Positions 33,480 through 45,130 of a stretch of DNA of 46,750 nt are shown piece by piece (the stretch's first letter is position 1; each line of letters begins with the position of its first letter). Origin of the DNA: Verrucomicrobiota bacterium (lineage in GTDB: Bacteria > Verrucomicrobiota > Verrucomicrobiia > Palsa-1439). A program made the position numbers and the translations under genes. The stretch lies in the NCBI GenBank assembly GCA_003152315.1, contig PLZV01000056.1:1-46750 (forward strand). Direction: 5' to 3'. The notes under the pieces were generated by a model that did no database searches, had not been told where the DNA came from, and worked only from the letters and a program-made list of their open reading frames with translations.

Positions 33480-34628
33480 ATGAGCGAGACCGAGACTAGG
33501 TATGCACCGGGACGGGTCCGTGATGCCATTCTTCAAGTATTATCTCTAAGCTCAAAACCTCTCTCGATCAAACAAATTCAAGAACGCGTGTCACAGGTCA
33601 TTGGGCCGACACCCACATCGTCCGTCCGTTCCTACCTCCGCCTGAATACTCCGAAGAGTTTCGTGAGACAAGATTGGGGCGTTTACAGTGTGCGCCATGG
33701 GGCAACGCTTGGAGTTCAGCGAAGTCTGTTGGACAAAGAAGCCTGGCAGCCCCCTTTGCATATCGGGCGCGCTCAACTCATTCATGCCGACTGCTTTGAT
33801 TGGCTTGAGCAGCAGGTGGATAACAGTTTTCAAGCTGTCCTCACTGATCCTCCGTATGGGCTGCATGAATACACCGCCGAGCAGCAATCGAAACTTCGGA
33901 GTGGAAAGGGGGGAGTTTGGCGAATTCCGCCGTCCTTCGATGGTCACATCAGATCTCCACTTCCTCGTTTCACTACTCTGACCGCGCAGCAGCTTGAAGA
34001 ATTGCGGAGCTTCTTCTTTGTGTGGACACGGTTGCTGCTGCCGAAACTTGTACCGGGCGCGCACGTCGTTGTCGCGTCCAATCCACTACTATCTTACATC
34101 GTGGCCGGGGCATTGGCGGATGCGGGTCTTGAACGCAGGGGGGAGATCATCAGACTGGTCATGACCATGCGTGGTGGAGACCGCCCCAAAGCCGCGCATA
34201 AGGAGTTTTGCGATGTGAGCGTAATGCCGCGTTCGATGTGGGAGCCATGGCTGGTATATCGAAAACCGCTGGAAGGCCGGGCCCAGGACAACCTGAGGAA
34301 ATGGAAAACGGGCGGACTTCGGCGTCCTGCTCCCGATAAGCCATTCGGCGATGTAATTCCATCATCTCCAACACGAAAGAGCGAGCGCTCTCTCGCCCCT
34401 CATCCCAGCCTCAAGCCACAGGCATTCCTACGGCAAGTTGTCCGAGCGCTCCTGCCTTTGGGCGAGGGAACTGTGCTGGACCCCTTCGCTGGCGCTGGAT
34501 CTACGTTGGCGGCGGCCGAGGCAATTGGCTACACCAGTATCGGGGTAGAAAAGGACAGGTACTATTTCGATATCGCAGCCCGGGCCATTCCCAAGCTCGT
34601 ACGGTTTCACGCTAACGGAAGTCTTTAG
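33480..34628 (+). CDS. Beta-class DNA methyltransferase
   Basis: This 382-residue enzyme has a winged-helix-like N-terminus (about 10-75, VRDAILQVLSLSSKPLSIKQ), possibly a HARE-HTH-like domain, then catalytic motif IV TDPPYG (122-127), and SAM-binding motif I DPFAGAG near the end (334-340). IV before I is the beta-class order. DPPY suggests N6-adenine, but N4-cytosine cannot be excluded. It converges on the putative endonuclease, overlapping by 4 bp. The promoter carries a tandem-octamer operator. Confidence 0.88.
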   Translation: MSETETRYAPGRVRDAILQVLSLSSKPLSIKQIQERVSQVIGPTPTSSVRSYLRLNTPKSFVRQDWGVYSVRHGATLGVQRSLLDKEAWQPPLHIGRAQLIHADCFDWLEQQVDNSFQAVLTDPPYGLHEYTAEQQSKLRSGKGGVWRIPPSFDGHIRSPLPRFTTLTAQQLEELRSFFFVWTRLLLPKLVPGAHVVVASNPLLSYIVAGALADAGLERRGEIIRLVMTMRGGDRPKAAHKEFCDVSVMPRSMWEPWLVYRKPLEGRAQDNLRKWKTGGLRRPAPDKPFGDVIPSSPTRKSERSLAPHPSLKPQAFLRQVVRALLPLGEGTVLDPFAGAGSTLAAAEAIGYTSIGVEKDRYYFDIAARAIPKLVRFHANGSL

Positions 34629-35236
34629 AGTCGGTAGATCCAGTTTTCCCGGAGTTTCTTGATCCCCTCGCGATGAAGTGTGGCAGTCCGTGTGCCCAAT
34701 TCACCTCGGGGATTCTTTCGAAAATCTTTGATCGTAACCTTACCCAAATAGATCTCGGTGAATGTCATCGGGTGGCGATCACGGGCCGGTTCTGTTTCCG
34801 AGTCAGTGTCGTAGACAAACACACACATCCATTGCTCTCTGGCGCCGTGGGTATCGACCGCGCCGCCGGATTTTCGCGTTGTCTTGATCTCAATGCCGTC
34901 GGTGCCAGCCTTGACTGCGTTGTCTGCATAGACTCCCTGCACAATCAGGTCGGGATGACCGTTGAAATACCTATTCTCGGTCAGGACGCGGGAATGCTTT
35001 GCCAGACTGGCCGTGAGCATATCCGATAGCACACCAGACATGATCGCGGGGCGTAGCATATCGTCCAGTCGCTGCAATCCTTTCTTGGCCAGGTGCGCGT
35101 TTACATCATAAAAGAAGTCATAAACATCCTGCACGGCCATTTGAAAATCGTGCAACCTTAGTTCGTAGGGAAGCTGTGCCGCCCGGTTGAACTTTGCCTC
35201 GTCCACAGTGTTGTGAATGGTGGCCATGATTGTCAT
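34625..35236 (-). CDS. Putative PD-(D/E)XK restriction endonuclease
   Basis: The 203-residue protein has PD at 95-96 (NGHPDLIVQG) and EIK at 116-118 (DGIEIKTT), with the spacing of the PD-(D/E)XK nuclease fold. A tract GAVDTHGAREQW follows, then RGELGTRTATL near the end. Its tail-to-tail overlap with the methyltransferase is the classic restriction-modification layout. The start at 35236 has a GGAGGG site. The recognition sequence and subfamily are unknown to me. Confidence 0.72.
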   Translation of the reverse strand: MTIMATIHNTVDEAKFNRAAQLPYELRLHDFQMAVQDVYDFFYDVNAHLAKKGLQRLDDMLRPAIMSGVLSDMLTASLAKHSRVLTENRYFNGHPDLIVQGVYADNAVKAGTDGIEIKTTRKSGGAVDTHGAREQWMCVFVYDTDSETEPARDRHPMTFTEIYLGKVTIKDFRKNPRGELGTRTATLHREGIKKLRENWIYRL

Positions 35237-35450: not shown

Positions 35451-37091
35451 ATGAAGGCGCTAAAAATCTGTTTCGGTGTAATACTTTTCGGGACGCTCAT
35501 CGCAGTCGTTCAACTTGCCGATCCGCCCCAGGATACTCCCGCCGCGAAATTTCAACGATTGCCGGATGTCAGCCTCGTCAGCGCGGCGTCGGCCGAGTGG
35601 GCCGCCGGGCGGAGCGGCGTCGCGCTGCTGTTGCTGGATTACGTCATCGAAAACGATCTGCCCGAAAAGGCGTCAGCCACCAAGCTTCGTGGGGAAGTCT
35701 TCGCGCAACTGGCGGCCGAACACACCCCCGTCAGCCGTCTCAAGGCCACGGGTTGGGCCGCCACGCTGGTGGGGGGGAATTCATTCGAGAGCCTGGCCGG
35801 CAGCACCGTGGCCGACGCCGTTTTGTACGGGGATATTTCTCAAGTGGCTCGCGACGGCGGGTTCGAGGGTTATCAGGATACCTTTACCGCTGCGCTAAAC
35901 AACATCCTCGGCATGGCCAATGTATTTCCGCCGGCCGCCGGCGCGATCACGCTGATCAAGGCCGCGCGCCGCACCAGTGCTCTCAACGAACCACTCACCC
36001 AACAATTGAGCTCGCTGCTGGACCTCATGCAGGCCGACCCGAAGTCGGCGCTCGCGGTGGAGAAGTTCAAGGACAATTTCATGCCGATGTTTGAATTGGC
36101 CAGGCACTGCCGCACTTGGGGGGAATTCGAAACGATCCTCCGGCAGGCCGACAGCCCTGACCAGATGAAGGTGTTGACCAAAATGGCCTCCGTCACGCCC
36201 GCCGCGTCGAAGCGTCTGGCTCAGGTTCTGGCGGTTGCCGCCCGTGATGGCCGTCCGTCGGCGTCCGCATGCATCGACCTGATTCTGCGCCAGGGACCCA
36301 GCGGGTTGGACACGTTATACGCCGCCATCGGCAAGGGAGCGGCGGGACTGCGATTTGTGGCCGAGCATCCCGAGTTGACGCCGCGGAATCTGGGGCGGGT
36401 GGCGAAAGCGCACCCGTCGGTACTGGATTTGATGCAGGAAAAATACCAGTCGCTCCGTTACCAGTACGGGTCGAGTGTGCCGTTCTTGAAATACCTGGTG
36501 ATCGCGATTCTCTGCGGCCTGCTGGTCCTTGTGCTTGTGCCCGGCCAGTACCTGGAAAAGTTGATTGCCCGACCGGGCAGCACGCTTGCCGCCCCAAGCC
36601 CGATTCATTTCTTGCTCTCGGCGCTGGCGGTGGGAGTCGTGGTGGCAGTTTTGGCGTATCTACTGTCGCTCGTGGTGCGTCCCGCCATGGAGCCATCGGC
36701 GATTACCGCGGTGGCCGGCGACGCGAGCGCGCCCGCCGTTGGCGAAAGAACCGATAGCGCCGTCTTGTCGGGAACGGTTGTGTTGATTTCACTGGTGATT
36801 CACGTAATCGTTTGGTTCGTCGTGAGAGGCAAGATCCGCCAGGTCGAAGACGATGAGCAGGCGAAGCCGTTGTTGCGCCTGAAGCGCCTGGAGAACCTCG
36901 ATGTCTTCCTGGATCTGCCGTTGTTTACCGGGTTGGCGTTGACGGTCTTCGCCTTCATCCTCATCACGCTGGATGCGGGCATGAGTCGGCATTTCGCTTA
37001 TACCTCCACCGTGGTCGGCATTCTGTCAGCAGTGTCGTTGCGGATCTGGTATCAATACCCGTTGAAGGAGCGTCTCATTCAGATGGAGTAG
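35451..37091 (+). CDS. MotA/TolQ/ExbB-like membrane protein with large periplasmic domain
   Basis: This 546-residue protein has an N-terminal membrane segment (about 4-21), a soluble helical domain (about 35-340) and C-terminal segments at about 345-364, 386-409, 438-458, 490-508 and 515-532. The last two read GLALTVFAFI and YTSTVVGILSAV, recalling the two pore helices of MotA, TolQ and ExbB. A GAGGTAAG site and an upstream mini-frame whose TGA shares ATGA with this start suggest coupled translation. It is followed after 13 bp by its likely partner. I do not recognise the soluble domain. Confidence 0.62.
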   Translation: MKALKICFGVILFGTLIAVVQLADPPQDTPAAKFQRLPDVSLVSAASAEWAAGRSGVALLLLDYVIENDLPEKASATKLRGEVFAQLAAEHTPVSRLKATGWAATLVGGNSFESLAGSTVADAVLYGDISQVARDGGFEGYQDTFTAALNNILGMANVFPPAAGAITLIKAARRTSALNEPLTQQLSSLLDLMQADPKSALAVEKFKDNFMPMFELARHCRTWGEFETILRQADSPDQMKVLTKMASVTPAASKRLAQVLAVAARDGRPSASACIDLILRQGPSGLDTLYAAIGKGAAGLRFVAEHPELTPRNLGRVAKAHPSVLDLMQEKYQSLRYQYGSSVPFLKYLVIAILCGLLVLVLVPGQYLEKLIARPGSTLAAPSPIHFLLSALAVGVVVAVLAYLLSLVVRPAMEPSAITAVAGDASAPAVGERTDSAVLSGTVVLISLVIHVIVWFVVRGKIRQVEDDEQAKPLLRLKRLENLDVFLDLPLFTGLALTVFAFILITLDAGMSRHFAYTSTVVGILSAVSLRIWYQYPLKERLIQME

Positions 37092-37104
37092 GGAGCGGGA
37101 TACC

Positions 37105-38814
37105 ATGAAGACGTCCATCCTGATCGTCATGCTTGATTTTTTGGTGTGCTCACTGTTGCTGTTTGTGATCGGCACGGGCGGCAAGCAAACGCAGTTTGCC
37201 ACGTCCGCTCCACCCGCCGTTCATGAAGCGTTTTCAGTCGCGGCACTGCAAGCGCAGCAGGAAGAATGGAACCGGGACTACGAGCAGCAAGCCCTCCGCG
37301 CCCAGCTCAATACGACCACCACGGAAAACGAGCAACTCCGCGGTCGTTTGACCGAGACGAGCGCCACCCTCGCCGCCCAGGAAGCAAACCTGAAGGCGCT
37401 GGCGGAGGAGAAAGCCCGCGTCGAAGTGGCCCGGACGCAGACCGAACAAGCGCTGACCACGGTGGCCAGCCAACTCGCCCGCGCGACCGCCGAGCAATCC
37501 AAACTCCAGCAGGAAGGCGACGCCGCCAAAGAGAGTCTCGTCAAAGTCCAGACAGAGTTGACCGGTCTACAGACCGAACAGAGCAAACTCCAGACGGAAA
37601 AAACACAACTCGAGCAGCACGCCCAACAGTTGGGCCAGACGGTGGCCAGCCAACAGGCGACCATTTCCACGTTGAGCGAAGAAGTGCGCGCGTCTCAAAC
37701 CCGGGTCGAGGCGCAAATGGGTGACGTCGCCAAAGAGCAGCAGGAGATGGGCTCGACACTGGGAAGACTCGATGAGTTCGCCCGGACGTTACCGGCGACC
37801 ATTCAGAAGAACGTCGCTGGCGTTCACGATGAACAACAGGCGATGCAACAGAACGTTGCCGCGCTGGCGGAGGACGTCAAGGGCCTGCAAGCCGGCCTCA
37901 ATGCCGATGAGAAATCCCGTCTGATGCAGGCTGTCTCGGATGTCGCCAAAGGGCAGCAGGATCTCCAGTCGCGTCTGGATACCCTGATCAAGGCCGGACA
38001 AAACGATCAGATCGGGCAGAGCTTGAATACGATTGAGAGCGGCCAGGAAGCACTGCGCCAGCAAACGGCCAAGCTGGGCGATCAAATCGAGTCCATCAAG
38101 GCCCGCGGCCCTGGCCCGTTCAAGGCCGTCAAGGGCGCGCGGCTCGAGCTATTGGTTGCGATTGCAAAGCGTGATTCAGCGGAGTCCCCGACCTCCCGCT
38201 TCAAATCAGCGGCCTACCCGCCGGTGGTCAATGTGGGTGGGCACTCGTTCGTCATCGCCAATTACCAGACATTCGGGTTTGGGTGGTGGGCCTTGAGCGC
38301 CATTGGTGAAATCACCCAACTGAAGTACACCGTCGATAAGGCCGGTGAGACGCCGTGGACGGGCGCGCTGTCGGCCCCTGCCTGTGCGTTGCGCGCTGAT
38401 CCGCACGTGGTGGCAGTGGAACTAAGTGGCGCGGTGCCCGGGTTGGCCACCATGGAATTGGCCGGACCCGAAGCCGTCCTGCAAACTGACCAGCGCAAGC
38501 TGCAGGTCTTCAAAAGCACTGCCGCAGGGCTGAGCTTCGAAGCCGATACCTCTCCCGACCTGGCCGATCCCCGCTATCTGGTAGTCAAACGTCCACTGCG
38601 CGGCGTTGCCTCCTGGTTCGAGAACCCCGCCTACCGCGCCGATACCGGGGACTACGTGGTAACCAGCGACGGCAAACTGGTAGGCATCATGGTCGGACGG
38701 GAAAGGTGTTTCGTCCTCACCAAGGACAACCTGGTGAATTGCGCCGCAACCATTCCACTGGCTGACGCGCGGCAATTCCAACCCGCCGTGGAAATCTACC
38801 GCAAACTCAAATAG
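37105..38814 (+). CDS. MotB/ExbD-like anchor with long coiled coil
   Basis: This 569-residue protein has one N-terminal membrane segment (4-23) with an acidic residue in the helix, D11 in VMLDFLVCSLLLF, as in ExbD, TolR and MotB where the Asp carries protons. A very long Gln/Glu/Lys-rich coiled coil follows (about 46-335), then a C-terminal beta-rich domain (about 336-569). The end (TGDYVVTSDGKLVGIMVG) recalls the last strands of trypsin-like folds, but a GDSG motif is absent. It lies 13 bp after the channel-like gene with a GGGAGCGGG site. The pair may form a motor-like complex. Confidence 0.62.
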   Translation: MKTSILIVMLDFLVCSLLLFVIGTGGKQTQFATSAPPAVHEAFSVAALQAQQEEWNRDYEQQALRAQLNTTTTENEQLRGRLTETSATLAAQEANLKALAEEKARVEVARTQTEQALTTVASQLARATAEQSKLQQEGDAAKESLVKVQTELTGLQTEQSKLQTEKTQLEQHAQQLGQTVASQQATISTLSEEVRASQTRVEAQMGDVAKEQQEMGSTLGRLDEFARTLPATIQKNVAGVHDEQQAMQQNVAALAEDVKGLQAGLNADEKSRLMQAVSDVAKGQQDLQSRLDTLIKAGQNDQIGQSLNTIESGQEALRQQTAKLGDQIESIKARGPGPFKAVKGARLELLVAIAKRDSAESPTSRFKSAAYPPVVNVGGHSFVIANYQTFGFGWWALSAIGEITQLKYTVDKAGETPWTGALSAPACALRADPHVVAVELSGAVPGLATMELAGPEAVLQTDQRKLQVFKSTAAGLSFEADTSPDLADPRYLVVKRPLRGVASWFENPAYRADTGDYVVTSDGKLVGIMVGRERCFVLTKDNLVNCAATIPLADARQFQPAVEIYRKLK

Positions 38815-40395: not shown

Positions 40396-41040
40396 ATGGC
40401 AATTGACGAAGGACTGAAAAGTGAGCTTCAGAAACAGGGGATTTTTGTTCTCCCGTTCGAGCAGCTTTATAATTGGGGCCGCAAATCCTCGATTTGGCCG
40501 TTGCAATTTGGCCTGGCCTGTTGCGCCATCGAGATGATCGCCAGCGCCGCTTCGCGCTACGATTTGGCCAGGTTCGGCGCGGAAGTTTTCCGCGCCACGC
40601 CGCGGCAGGCCGACTTGATGATCGTCGCGGGTACGGTCACCAAGAAAATGGCTCCACAGGTCGTCCGCCTCTATAACCAGATGCCGGAACCCAAGTATTG
40701 CATCGCCATGGGCGCCTGCGCGATCTCGGGCGGACCGTTCAAGGACGGCTACAACGTCTTGAAGGGGATCGACCGCTATATTCCCGTGGACGTGCACATT
40801 CCCGGCTGTCCGCCGCGCCCGGAGGCGTTGATCCACGCGATCATGACGTTGCAACGCAAGATCGCGAACCAGCACCTTGAGAAGGGCCAACGACCGCGAT
40901 GGTACGACAAGAATGCGGCCTCCGAGTACGCGATTCCCGCATTCGGCGAACATGATTTGCAGCCGACGGCCAATCGCGAAGTGTGGCAACCGCCGCGCGA
41001 TTACCGCGACGTGACGCTGGAGGATGTCAAGAAACCCTGA
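40396..41040 (+). CDS. nuoB: NADH-quinone oxidoreductase subunit B
   Basis: This 214-residue subunit holds Fe-S cluster N2, the last electron carrier before quinone. Ligands are visible: C42 and C43 in ACCAIEM, C108 in MGACAISGG, and C138 in [10 protein letters not shown]. The C-terminus is longer than in E. coli. nuoC starts on its last base (TGATGG overlap). Confidence 0.96.
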
Positions 41041-41636
41041 TGGAAGCGATTGAGAAAATCAAGGAGATCGCCGCGCAGGCCGTGCCGGCTGCGAAGATTG
41101 AGATCATCAACTCCACGCCCGCGGCCCAGCAGCCCGCGTTGCTCGTGGACCGCGAGCACATCTATGCGGTGGGAAAGTTTTTCAAGGAAGACCCGCGCTT
41201 CCAGATGGATTTCTGTTCGTGCGTGACAGCCGTCGATTATCTGCCCAAGGCCGACAAGTCCGGCTGCATCGAGGTCGTCTACCATCTGTATTCCGTCGCG
41301 CAGAAGCAGGGGCCCATCGTGCTGAAGGTGCGCGCACCGCGTGAACTCGATCAATGTCGCGTGCCGTCCCTGACGCCGTTGTGGCGCGCCTGCGAATTCC
41401 AGGAGCGCGAGGCGTACGACCTGTATGGCGTGAAGTTCGACGGACATCCTGATTTGCGGCGCATCCTGATGTGGGACGAATTTGTCGATCATCCGATGCG
41501 CAAGGATTACGTGCCGCCGCCGGATTACGAGTGGGAGCCGACGCCTCATGACGACACGCTGCAACGCGCTGTGGAAGAGGGCGGGATCATGCCGCCCACC
41601 GCGCGCGAGGAACTGGAGAAGGCGAAGAAGAAATGA
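41040..41636 (+). CDS. nuoC: NADH-quinone oxidoreductase subunit C
   Basis: This 198-residue peripheral subunit carries the 30-kDa signature [20 protein letters not shown], with CEFQE before it. It supports the N2 cluster domain. The ATG overlaps the nuoB stop by one base, and its own stop overlaps nuoD by 4 bp. NuoC and NuoD are separate here rather than fused as in E. coli. Confidence 0.94.
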
Positions 41637-42799
41637 TCCAGCCACTCACAGACGCGAAGCCGTACACATTGACGCCGGGTTCGAACGGTGTAATCGAGAC
41701 CCAGACGCTGGAAGTCTCCATCGGGCCGCAGCACCCGAGTACGCACGGTGTGTTCCGCATGGATTGCGTGCTGGACGGCGAATCGGTCGTCGCGCTCAAG
41801 CCCGTCATGGGCTACCTGCACCGCAATCACGAGCAACTGGCCGAGCGCATGGCCTGGCTGGGCTCGATGCCGTACACCGATCGGCTCGATTATTTCAACT
41901 CCATGACCAACAACTGGGCGTACGCGCTGGCCGTCGAGAAGCTCGCGGGCATCAAGGTTCCCGACCGCGCCGAGTATATCCGCGTGATCATGGCGGAATT
42001 GACCCGTCTGCTGAACCACTCGTGCGTGATCGGGTTCATGTTGCAGGACCTCGGCGCGTGGGGCACGCCGTTGCTGTATGCCTTCCGCGAACGCGAGCGG
42101 ATTCTCGATTTATATGAAGCCGTGAGCGGCTCGCGCATGATGTGCAATTACATGCGATTCGGCGGCGTGCGCGTGAACCTGACCGACGAAAACCTGGCGA
42201 CGGCAAAGGATATTGCAACCCGCTTTCCGAGATTTCTGGATGAGTTTGAGAAATTGCTTACCAACAACGAGGTGTTGCTCGCCCGCACGCAACGCGTGGG
42301 CGTCCTGCCGAAGGAATTGGCAATCAACGCCGGTATCAGCGGCCCGATGGCCCGGGCCAGTGGCGTGGACTACGACCTTCGCAAGGTGGACAAATACGGC
42401 GTGTACGGACGTCTCGAATTTCGTGTGCCGCTCGGCGACATTGGCGATGTGTATGACCGCTACTATATCCGCGTGCTGGAGATGCGCGAGAGCATCAAGA
42501 TCCTGCAGCAGGCCCTGCGCGATATTCCGCAAGGTCCGCATATCGCGCCCGAAGTGAAGTTGCGCAATTTCAAGATTCCGCCCGGCGATGGCTACGGTCG
42601 TATCGAGGGACCGAAGGGCGAACTGGGGTTCTATCTCGTTTCGGATGAAGGCGGCAAACAGCCGTACCGCTACCATGTGCGACCGCCGAGCTTTATCAAC
42701 CTGACGATTCTGGAGGACATGTGCGTCGGGCATAAAGTGGCTGACGTCGTGGTCATCCTCGGCAGCGTCGATATCGTGTTGGGGGAGGTGGACCGCTAA
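41633..42799 (+). CDS. nuoD: NADH-quinone oxidoreductase subunit D
   Basis: This 388-residue 49-kDa subunit forms the quinone pocket with NuoB. It has [28 protein letters not shown] and, near the C-terminus, [13 protein letters not shown]. The nickel cysteines of hydrogenases are absent, as expected. It overlaps nuoI by one base (TAATG). Confidence 0.96.
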
Positions 42800-43824
42800 T
42801 GGGCTTTATTGGCAAAGGCTTGTTCGAAGGGATGGTCGTGACCGCCCGCAATTTCGTGGGCAGTTATTTCGACAAGGAACGCCTCGTAACAGTCCAGTAT
42901 CCCGAGGAACGCGTCCAGGTCCCCGAAAACTCGCGCACATTTCCCTTCCTCGTGTTCGACAAGGACAGCGATCCCGTCGCCTCGATGCGTTGTGTGGCCT
43001 GCAAGATTTGCGAAGTGGAATGCCCGCCACAATGCATTTACATCGTCATGGATCGCGACGAGAAAGGCAAACCGCAGCAGCGCCCGAAGGTGTTCGACAT
43101 CGACATCAGCGTCTGCATGCAGTGCCAGATTTGCGTGGAGGTCTGCCCTTTCGACGCGATCAAGATGGACAACAATTACGAGAAGTCGCAGTACGGGCGC
43201 TTCGATGAACTTGTCGAGCATTTGCCCGAACTGCTGAAGTCGAACGAATTCTATAACAAGATCAAGCCCACCGAGGCTACCGCTGTTGATGCCAAGCTGA
43301 AAGCGGACGCGGAAAAGAAGGCGAAGAAAGCTGCGCCAGCCGCAAAACCCGCAGCAACAGCAGCCAAGCCGGCCGCTCCGGCGGCACCGAAGCCCGCGCC
43401 AGTGGCAGCTCCGACGGCAAAGATTGCGATTCCAGATGATGCGCCATTTACGCCCGAGCAACGTCAATGGCTCAGCGGATATCTCAGCACGGTTGCGGCT
43501 TCCGGCGTCGCGCCTGCAGCCGCAGCCCCAGTCGCCGGAACGCCGGCAGCGCCAGCCACCGAAGCGCCGGCCGGTAACTGGCCGTGGCACGATCCAGGAC
43601 TCGGGATGCAGCGGCGGCTGGATTTGGCAAAGGAAACGCCCATTGCCGACAAGCTGATGGCGGCCATGGCGCAGACCGATTGTCATGCCTGCGGTTACGA
43701 TTGTCGGGGCTACGCCGATGCGATTGCCACGGGTGCGGAGACCGATTTGTCACTATGCCTGCCCGGAGAAGCGGAAACTGCCAACATGCTCAAGAAGCTG
43801 ATGCAGGAGGCAGGGAAGTTGTAA
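42799..43824 (+). CDS. nuoI: NuoI fused to an RnfB/CysJ-type Fe-S module
   Basis: The 341-residue protein has an N-terminal NuoI part with two 4Fe-4S motifs: C65-C68-C71-C75 (CVACKICEVEC) and C106-C109-C112-C116 (CMQCQICVEVC). An Ala/Pro-rich linker (about 165-260) follows. The tail holds PFTPEQRQWLSGYL (217-230) and a four-cysteine module C295-C298-C302-C320 (CHACGYDC...CLPGE). The tail resembles the PF04060-like Fe-S domain of RnfB and the extension of some sulfite reductases, known to me from family memory. Standard NuoI is about half this size. Confidence 0.88.
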   Translation: MGFIGKGLFEGMVVTARNFVGSYFDKERLVTVQYPEERVQVPENSRTFPFLVFDKDSDPVASMRCVACKICEVECPPQCIYIVMDRDEKGKPQQRPKVFDIDISVCMQCQICVEVCPFDAIKMDNNYEKSQYGRFDELVEHLPELLKSNEFYNKIKPTEATAVDAKLKADAEKKAKKAAPAAKPAATAAKPAAPAAPKPAPVAAPTAKIAIPDDAPFTPEQRQWLSGYLSTVAASGVAPAAAAPVAGTPAAPATEAPAGNWPWHDPGLGMQRRLDLAKETPIADKLMAAMAQTDCHACGYDCRGYADAIATGAETDLSLCLPGEAETANMLKKLMQEAGKL

Positions 43825-43838
43825 ACGCGGTGTGGGGT

Positions 43839-43867
43839 TTGACAGGGGATGGGGGTTTCCCTATAAG
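43839..43867 (+). promoter_or_regulatory. Internal sigma-70-like promoter before nuoH
   Basis: TTGACA (43839-43844), a 17-bp spacer and TATAAG (43862-43867) precede nuoH by 33 bp. It lies in the largest gap of the nuo cluster (76 bp), so the membrane-arm genes could be transcribed separately. Confidence 0.72.
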
Positions 43868-43900
43868 AAGCGCGCCCGTTTTAGGGCTGACTGACGAAGC

Positions 43901-45130
43901 ATGGATCAGGTTTATAAAGTCGCACCACAATTACTGAAGTTCTTGTCCTACCTGCTGGGGTGGTTGCCCTGGATCGGGAAGCCCGTTGCCGGGTTCCTGT
44001 CCAACCCGCCGGCATGGTTCCTCCTTGCCGTGGCGATTGCGATTCCCATTCTTTTTGTCGTCTCCGTGTTTCCCGGTATTTTTGCCTATACCACGCTCGT
44101 TGAGCGCAAGGCGCTCGGTCGAATCCAGAACCGGATCGGTCCGAACCGCGTTGGCCGCTGGGGTCTCCTCCAGCCAATCGCGGATGGCGTGAAGTTGCTG
44201 ACCAAGGAAGACATAGTCCCGCGTAGTGCCGACAAATTCGTCCACTTTCTTGCGCCCGTGATCGCGGTCATTCCGTCCGTACTGCTTTTCTCGGTGGTAC
44301 CGGTTGGCGCAGGATTGGTTCCGGTGGATCTCAACATCGGCATCTTGTTTGCCTTCGCCATTAGCACGGCCAGCGTGCTGGCGCTCTTCATGGGTGGCTG
44401 GGCGTCACGGAACAAGTTCTCGCTGCTCGGTGCGATGCGCGCGGTGGCCCAGGTTGTTTCCTATGAAGTTCCCATGGTACTCGCGGCGGTGGCGGTGGTG
44501 ATGGCTGCTGGCTCACTTTCCACACTGGCCATTGCCAAAGCGCAGGGTGGGGGAATCCTCAACGTCACGCACTGGTTCGTATTTCGTCCGTGGGGATTTG
44601 TCGGGTTCATCCTCTTCACGATTGGCGCGATGGCGGAGTCGGCGCGCACGCCGTTTGACATCCCCGAAGCGGAATCGGAAATCATCGCGGGCTATCACAC
44701 CGAGTATAGCGGCTTCAAGTTCGCCCTCTTCCAACTCGGCGAGTACCTCGCGTCGATTGCGATGGCGGGGATCACGGTGACAATGTTCCTGGGCGGGTAC
44801 AATGGTCCCGGCAGCGGACCTGGTATCCTGGGCGGCCTGATTTCCATGTTTTGGTTCTTTGCCAAGCTGGGGGGCATGATTGTGTTGACCATCTGGATTC
44901 GTGGCACCTGGCCGCGCGTGCGCGTCGACCAATTGATGAGCTTTGCGTGGAAGGTGCTGCTGCCCATGTCGATCGTCAACATTGTCGCCGTCGGCATGTG
45001 GCATTATATAGCGATCCGGCCCATCGCCTGGGTGGTGACCACGTTGTGGCTCGTCCTCTGGTTTATCACCCTCTCCAAACTCGCGGCCTCCGAAAACATC
45101 GAGAAGCGTGAATACCGGTACGCCTCCTGA
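43901..45130 (+). CDS. nuoH: NADH-quinone oxidoreductase subunit H
   Basis: This 409-residue membrane subunit joins the peripheral and membrane arms near the quinone site. It shows ERKALGRIQNRIGPNRVG, GWASRNKFSLLGAMRAVAQ, SYEVPMVLA and SARTPFDIPEAESEI with YHTEYSG, all family-typical. It has many membrane segments. It is longer than usual at the N-terminus (about 60 extra residues with a first hydrophobic stretch). nuoJ follows after 5 bp. Confidence 0.95.
   Translation: MDQVYKVAPQLLKFLSYLLGWLPWIGKPVAGFLSNPPAWFLLAVAIAIPILFVVSVFPGIFAYTTLVERKALGRIQNRIGPNRVGRWGLLQPIADGVKLLTKEDIVPRSADKFVHFLAPVIAVIPSVLLFSVVPVGAGLVPVDLNIGILFAFAISTASVLALFMGGWASRNKFSLLGAMRAVAQVVSYEVPMVLAAVAVVMAAGSLSTLAIAKAQGGGILNVTHWFVFRPWGFVGFILFTIGAMAESARTPFDIPEAESEIIAGYHTEYSGFKFALFQLGEYLASIAMAGITVTMFLGGYNGPGSGPGILGGLISMFWFFAKLGGMIVLTIWIRGTWPRVRVDQLMSFAWKVLLPMSIVNIVAVGMWHYIAIRPIAWVVTTLWLVLWFITLSKLAASENIEKREYRYAS

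Follow-up and report, generated by a model that had tools for sequence, protein, structure and literature searches.

Bacterial ion-driven motors power flagella and the TonB/Tol systems, and two adjacent genes in a Verrucomicrobia genome raise the question of whether they encode another such machine. The genes lie in the window, the 46,750-nucleotide stretch of contig PLZV01000056.1 that we analysed, which comes from an uncultured Verrucomicrobia genome whose genus- and family-level relatives are Verrucomicrobia or Verrucomicrobiia bacteria. An earlier note on this DNA had proposed a motor-like pair, formed by a 546-residue channel protein and a 569-residue partner, here called the anchor. Both proteins are real: the channel open reading frame occupies 35451–37091 and the anchor open reading frame, which the co-occurrence described below also supports, 37105–38814, both on the + strand and separated by 13 bases.

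The channel is a channel-like membrane protein with six predicted transmembrane helices. AlphaFold2, using a 58-row alignment, modelled all 546 residues with a mean pLDDT of 86.8, placing helices at residues 2–20, 342–362, 384–413, 434–467, 489–507 and 514–545 and a solenoid at residues ~30–340. Hydropathy marks five clear hydrophobic segments (residues 4–22, 345–363, 391–409, 440–458 and 489–507), and the sixth long helix, 514–545, is predicted by the AlphaFold2 model. The N-terminal helix, or signal anchor (residues 2–22, 35454–35516), is followed by the helical solenoid (35538–36470), which is predicted to be periplasmic and has pLDDT values mostly of 90–98. Model and hydropathy then agree on helices at residues 342–363 (36474–36539), 384–413 (36600–36689), the probable equivalent of MotA TM1, and 434–467 (36750–36851), a long helix at the position of MotA TM2 and TolQ TM1. 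The segment between core helices 2 and 3, predicted to be cytoplasmic, is short, at about 20 residues (468–488, 36852–36914), and is modelled with one broken helix at 473–487 (473–482 and 484–487). Two predicted pore helices complete the chain, one at residues 489–507 (36915–36971), carrying G494 and T498, and one at residues 514–545 (36990–37085), carrying Y517, T520 and G523; these contain the two segments quoted by the earlier note, GLALTVFAFI at residues 494–503 and YTSTVVGILSAV at residues 517–528. Loop charges in the channel obey the positive-inside rule only partly.

The anchor has a single N-terminal hydrophobic helix (residues 5–23, 37117–37173, by hydropathy) with Asp11 (37135–37137) within it, and the roughly 290 residues that follow are nearly devoid of Pro and aromatics and have a coiled-coil composition, which bears out the helix and the coiled coil originally described. 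This coiled coil (residues ~45–335, 37237–38109) is predicted to be periplasmic, and in Pfam and NCBIfam the window anchor gave coiled-coil-only matches, to SMC-type models. The C-terminal domain (residues ~340–569, 38122–38811), which reads as beta-rich from its sequence, is private to the system: in the class sample its profile matched once in each of 73 genomes, with G515-D516 invariant. No ExbD, MotB or OmpA model in Pfam matched the window anchor, and none matched any of 42 anchor C-terminal domains; membership of the partner in the ExbD/MotB family by profile was thus not borne out. A profile of the anchor end also gave no meaningful match among PDB sequences. When the domain was aligned by hhalign with the trypsin-like family PF13365, GDYVVTSDGKLVGIMV fell on the GNSGGPLV region (P 0.065, with 1 of 100 shuffles scoring higher) and the catalytic position held no Ser in the anchor domain; a trypsin-like fold for this end is at most a lead.

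If the two proteins work together, their genes might be expected to keep company in other genomes, as the earlier note anticipated, and they do. Of 286 genomes sampled from the window's class, 74 matched a channel profile and 73 of these matches were genuine, giving the system a frequency of about a quarter in the class; the other match, G260, was rejected as a channel-only genome, being a fragment with stops and without the core. An independent profile, built from the anchor C-terminal domain and having nothing in common with that of the channel, found 73 of the same 286 genomes, all among the channel's 74. Both genes are present, each in a single copy, in all 73 class genomes that carry either, and in 71 of these the anchor lies directly downstream of the channel on the same strand. 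In the other two, G270 and G280, channel and anchor are unlinked (C6 and C20 in G270, C2 in G280), yet both are retained; the G280 channel is followed by an acyltransferase-like gene (MIHPTAVIEDGV). The 73 carriers are related to one another, which keeps a hypergeometric value for the co-occurrence from being a fair measure of chance, but the pattern is clear despite this kinship, and the channel and anchor form one conserved two-gene system.

The system extends beyond this class, with the channel profile matching 76 of 195 genomes (~40%) in a sample of the phylum. Most channels from other classes (Lentisphaeria, Victivallales) are short, at about 170–230 residues (~180), and match the C-terminal core only; these short relatives lack the solenoid and have the same anchor-type partner gene. 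Patterns derived from this family, which members in other phyla may have escaped, were scanned against 84,980 species genomes and picked out records from Verrucomicrobia, Kiritimatiellaeota and Lentisphaerae and a few others. Carriers in the scan include the cultured Victivallis vadensis DSM 14823 (L234) and two strains with complete genomes, Lentisphaerae bacterium WC36 (L212) and strain zth2 (L242).

Conservation of Asp11, on which the proposal of a motor depended, was found throughout. The residue, counted by patterns or by reading, was present in 63 of 63 anchors in a first set and in 75 of 75 in a second, for which the pattern permitted other residues at that position. It is kept where the remaining anchor sequence is only 12–25% identical, and loci that the patterns missed have it too, wherever they are readable. 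Typical anchor N-termini read MNRSILIVICDFLVLS and MNKTLLLIICDFLLL, and the unlinked anchor of G280 still carries MSKSIMIVICDFLLL. An Asp-less anchor might in principle escape the patterns, but an Asp-bearing one adjoins the channel at almost all distinct loci, which leaves little room for such cases.

In the channel, D488 at the end of the short predicted cytoplasmic segment, together with G494, Y517 and G523 in the predicted pore helices, is invariant across 120 distinct sequences. T498 gives way to Ser in 8 of them, the other 112 having Thr, and T520 to Asn in 15, the other 105 having Thr. Comparison by hhalign with 30 MotA_ExbB-family proteins of the same class placed GLxGTV on GLLGTV and AYSSTxxGI on the ALxTTAAGL of ExbB/TolQ. 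The match is weak, with P = 0.009 for the core in a first alignment and 0.018 in a deeper, 120-row alignment that did not improve the score, and a few column-shuffled controls score as high as, or above, the real core alignment. In the numbering of E. coli ExbB, this register puts T498 at Thr148 and T520 at Thr181. ExbB Thr148 and Thr181 and ExbD Asp25 are described as essential in a 2026 review (PMC12905483). Membership of the channel in PF01618 by profile did not hold, since Pfam MotA_ExbB is absent from the families matched by 62 members. The window channel itself had no MotA_ExbB match in Pfam at E up to 10 and no NCBIfam match, and a channel-core profile found no meaningful match among PDB sequences. 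Because the profile test fails, we do not file the pair under PF01618 or PF02472/PF13677.

We then turned to structure comparison, for which the last 200 channel residues were modelled separately with AlphaFold2 (overall pLDDT 78, but above 90 for most of the three-helix core). Foldseek, searching with this model against the whole PDB (~350,000 chains), ranked E. coli TolQ first at E 1.7, a value at which the rank is not significant alone; 7 of the best 50 rows were TolQ/ExbB chains, and no match fell below E 1. Among the best 50 entries from VIA, 12 were TolQ, ExbB, PomA or MotA, with Z of 6.5–9.2: TolQ at 9.2 (111 residues, rmsd 4.5), ExbB at 8.1, PomA at 7.3 and Campylobacter jejuni MotA at 6.5 with 22% identity. 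The VIA alignment covers about 110 of the 200 residues over a range spanning nearly the whole TolQ chain, a pattern that fits a match of the modelled core skipping the cytoplasmic domain. With the full-length channel model, VIA placed MotA 8ucs (8ucs_G) second (Z 7.0, rmsd 3.6, 97 residues), channel residues 448–546 matching MotA 35–214. Foldseek with the whole 546-residue model returned a list filled by designed helical repeats, and the absence of TolQ and ExbB from it is no evidence against them.

How much weight this likeness can bear depends on what else resembles the model. Only 17 distinct sequences in the PDB, in about 41 entries, match the ExbB/TolQ/MotA profile, and these proteins are greatly over-represented among the structural matches though rare in the database. 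Unrelated three-helix bundles and CorA reach a Z of 9–10.3, with spectrin repeats and designed bundles equal or higher, which makes the fold match supportive rather than decisive. The claim of a motor-type channel core is upheld in part. In its favour are the first rank of TolQ, the 12 motor proteins among 50 VIA entries and the pore Gly and Thr residues in register; against it are the missing Pfam match in 62 members, the hhalign P of ~0.01–0.02 and the helical bundles that tie on Z. We regard a TolQ/ExbB/MotA-like channel core as a prediction with moderate support, short of proof. The earlier note's wording, that the known families use 'exactly this pore plus Asp-bearing anchor logic', is an interpretation when applied to the pair.

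Given these data, we consider it fairly likely that the two proteins form a divergent ion-driven motor, working by analogy like MotAB, TolQR, ExbBD and GldLM. It is the best reading because the pair shares with those systems the order of the partners, an Asp-bearing N-terminal helix, the pore Gly/Thr motifs and the order of the helices. The channel-then-anchor arrangement in 71 of 73 genomes favours it, and an A-then-B gene order is usual among MotAB homologues (Puente-Lelievre et al., PMC12505986). Also in its favour, another class encodes the core by itself, at about 180 residues, and together with the same partner. Against it weigh the failure of the anchor to match an ExbD or MotB model, the brevity of the predicted cytoplasmic segment and the partial fit of the loop charges to the positive-inside rule. 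The two-gene unit, the invariant Asp11 and the conserved pore motifs are established here, and the topology and TolQ/ExbB/MotA-like core are predicted; from these we infer ion flow, a 5:2 stoichiometry, rotation, the periplasmic placement of the large domains, and the function set out below.

In such a motor, several channel copies (five, by analogy) would ring the N-terminal helices of two dimerised anchors, and periplasmic protons or sodium ions would reach Asp11 along a route that T498 and T520 line. Cyclic neutralisation of Asp11 could then turn or shift one part against the other, and the coiled coil, acting as a shaft or arm, would convey this motion across the periplasm to the C-terminal domain, the putative effector on some envelope target. 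The channel's periplasmic solenoid, where the long form has it, may hold the shaft in place.

The same observations can be read in other ways. The likeness to TolQ and MotA might be no more than the generic look of long membrane helices, in which case the pair would be an unrelated two-part scaffold without ion flow. The ties on Z with CorA, spectrin repeats and designed bundles would be expected from this, as would an hhalign match not clearly above shuffled controls and the missing Pfam match. We nevertheless judge it quite improbable, since the helix order, the Asp at the partner's N-terminus and the Gly/Thr motifs all stand where a motor model requires them, and chance likeness does not readily give TolQ, ExbB and MotA such prominence among structural matches when they are so scarce in the PDB.

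A different alternative comes from the neighbouring genes, which differ between genera beyond the pair itself. By motif count, 29 of 72 testable loci (~40%), from a set that is mainly Lentisphaeria, have a Ser/Thr kinase gene next after the pair, and in G007, from the window's family, an FHA-kinase gene begins 41 bases past the anchor; no kinase directly adjoins the pair in the window. The pair could thus be an envelope sensor, in which the coiled coil and C-terminal domain monitor the periplasm or cell wall and the membrane part relays the state to a Ser/Thr kinase, with Asp11 as a structural or gating residue. The adjoining kinases, including that of this family-level relative, speak for a sensor, but most long-form loci lack one, and a kinase could equally serve as the output or regulator of a motor. 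An invariant Asp with two pore Thr positions also suits ion coupling better than plain scaffolding, and we think a sensor, and with it such a role for Asp11, unlikely. Two of these kinases, when scanned with Pfam, were fusions with an FGE-sulfatase-like domain; such fusions (L076:7357-9945, L078:7414-10011 and similar loci) lie directly after the anchor in many Lentisphaeria.

Several known motors offer points of comparison for the proposed one. Like TolQR and ExbBD, it has the A-then-B order, a predicted three-helix core with GLxGTV and AxxxTxxG and an Asp in the partner's single N-terminal helix; its predicted cytoplasmic segment of ~20 residues may be a condensed form of their cytoplasmic domain of two or more helices. 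Unlike them, it is below detection by the family profiles (PF01618, PF02472), its channel has extra helices and a 310-residue helical solenoid, and its partner ends in a private domain after about 290 coiled-coil residues; neither a TolA nor a TonB gene was noticed adjoining the pair. The four predicted helices at 384–545 follow the TM1–TM4 order of MotA, but the torque-generating cytoplasmic domain and the OmpA-like peptidoglycan domain of MotAB/PomAB are missing. ZorAB, of the Zorya defence system, is comparable as a distant homologue of the motors that carries a long helical extension; PADLOC ZorA3 matched the anchor's coiled coil only and not the channel. GldLM, of type IX secretion and gliding, is a 5:2 motor without obvious sequence homology to MotAB, in which a long periplasmic shaft replaces the wall anchor (PMC9389320). 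It therefore offers a precedent for a profile-invisible motor with a long periplasmic shaft, although the GldM shaft consists of four folded domains in series rather than a coiled coil. GldL and GldM were not among the matches listed in the Pfam, Foldseek and VIA searches, and no gliding or secretion genes were noticed adjoining the pair.

The suggestion that this architecture is unlike that of any described member is supported as far as we searched, in family libraries and in papers. Identity with a named family in Pfam, NCBIfam or PADLOC was rejected, the anchor giving coiled-coil noise only and the channel nothing; in PADLOC, the channel matched 0 families and the anchor coiled coils only. 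Puente-Lelievre et al. (PMC12505986) surveyed MotA homologues of 205 genomes and split the non-flagellar ones by type of cytoplasmic domain, and a system of this architecture was not found described in the available portion of that paper; among open-licence full texts, we found no paper describing this gene-pair family. We advance tentatively, as quite possible rather than probable, the fuller proposal of an undescribed 5:2-type class of ion motor in Verrucomicrobia, Kiritimatiellae and Lentisphaeria, which escapes all family profiles, drives a coiled-coil shaft across the periplasm to a private effector domain and, in many Lentisphaeria, is coupled to a membrane Ser/Thr kinase. Whatever its action, a system this common (73 of 286 class and 76 of 195 phylum genomes, with Victivallis vadensis among the carriers) is unnamed by any family library searched. 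If it is a motor, it would extend the range of ion-driven motors past sequence-profile detection, provide an independent case in which the indispensable residues are a partner Asp and two pore Thr, and tie an ion-driven motor to kinase signalling.

Elsewhere in the window, NADH dehydrogenase (complex I) subunit genes lie downstream, at about 40396–45130; similar genes adjoin the pair in two genomes of the same genus, and this neighbourhood is accordingly genus-level synteny. Upstream, an N6_N4_Mtase-type DNA methylase gene (33480–34628, +) meets a gene on the opposite strand (34625–35236) for a 203-residue protein without a Pfam match and with a nuclease-like reading (GIEIKTTRKSGG), and the two are possibly a restriction-modification pair beside the motor-like genes.
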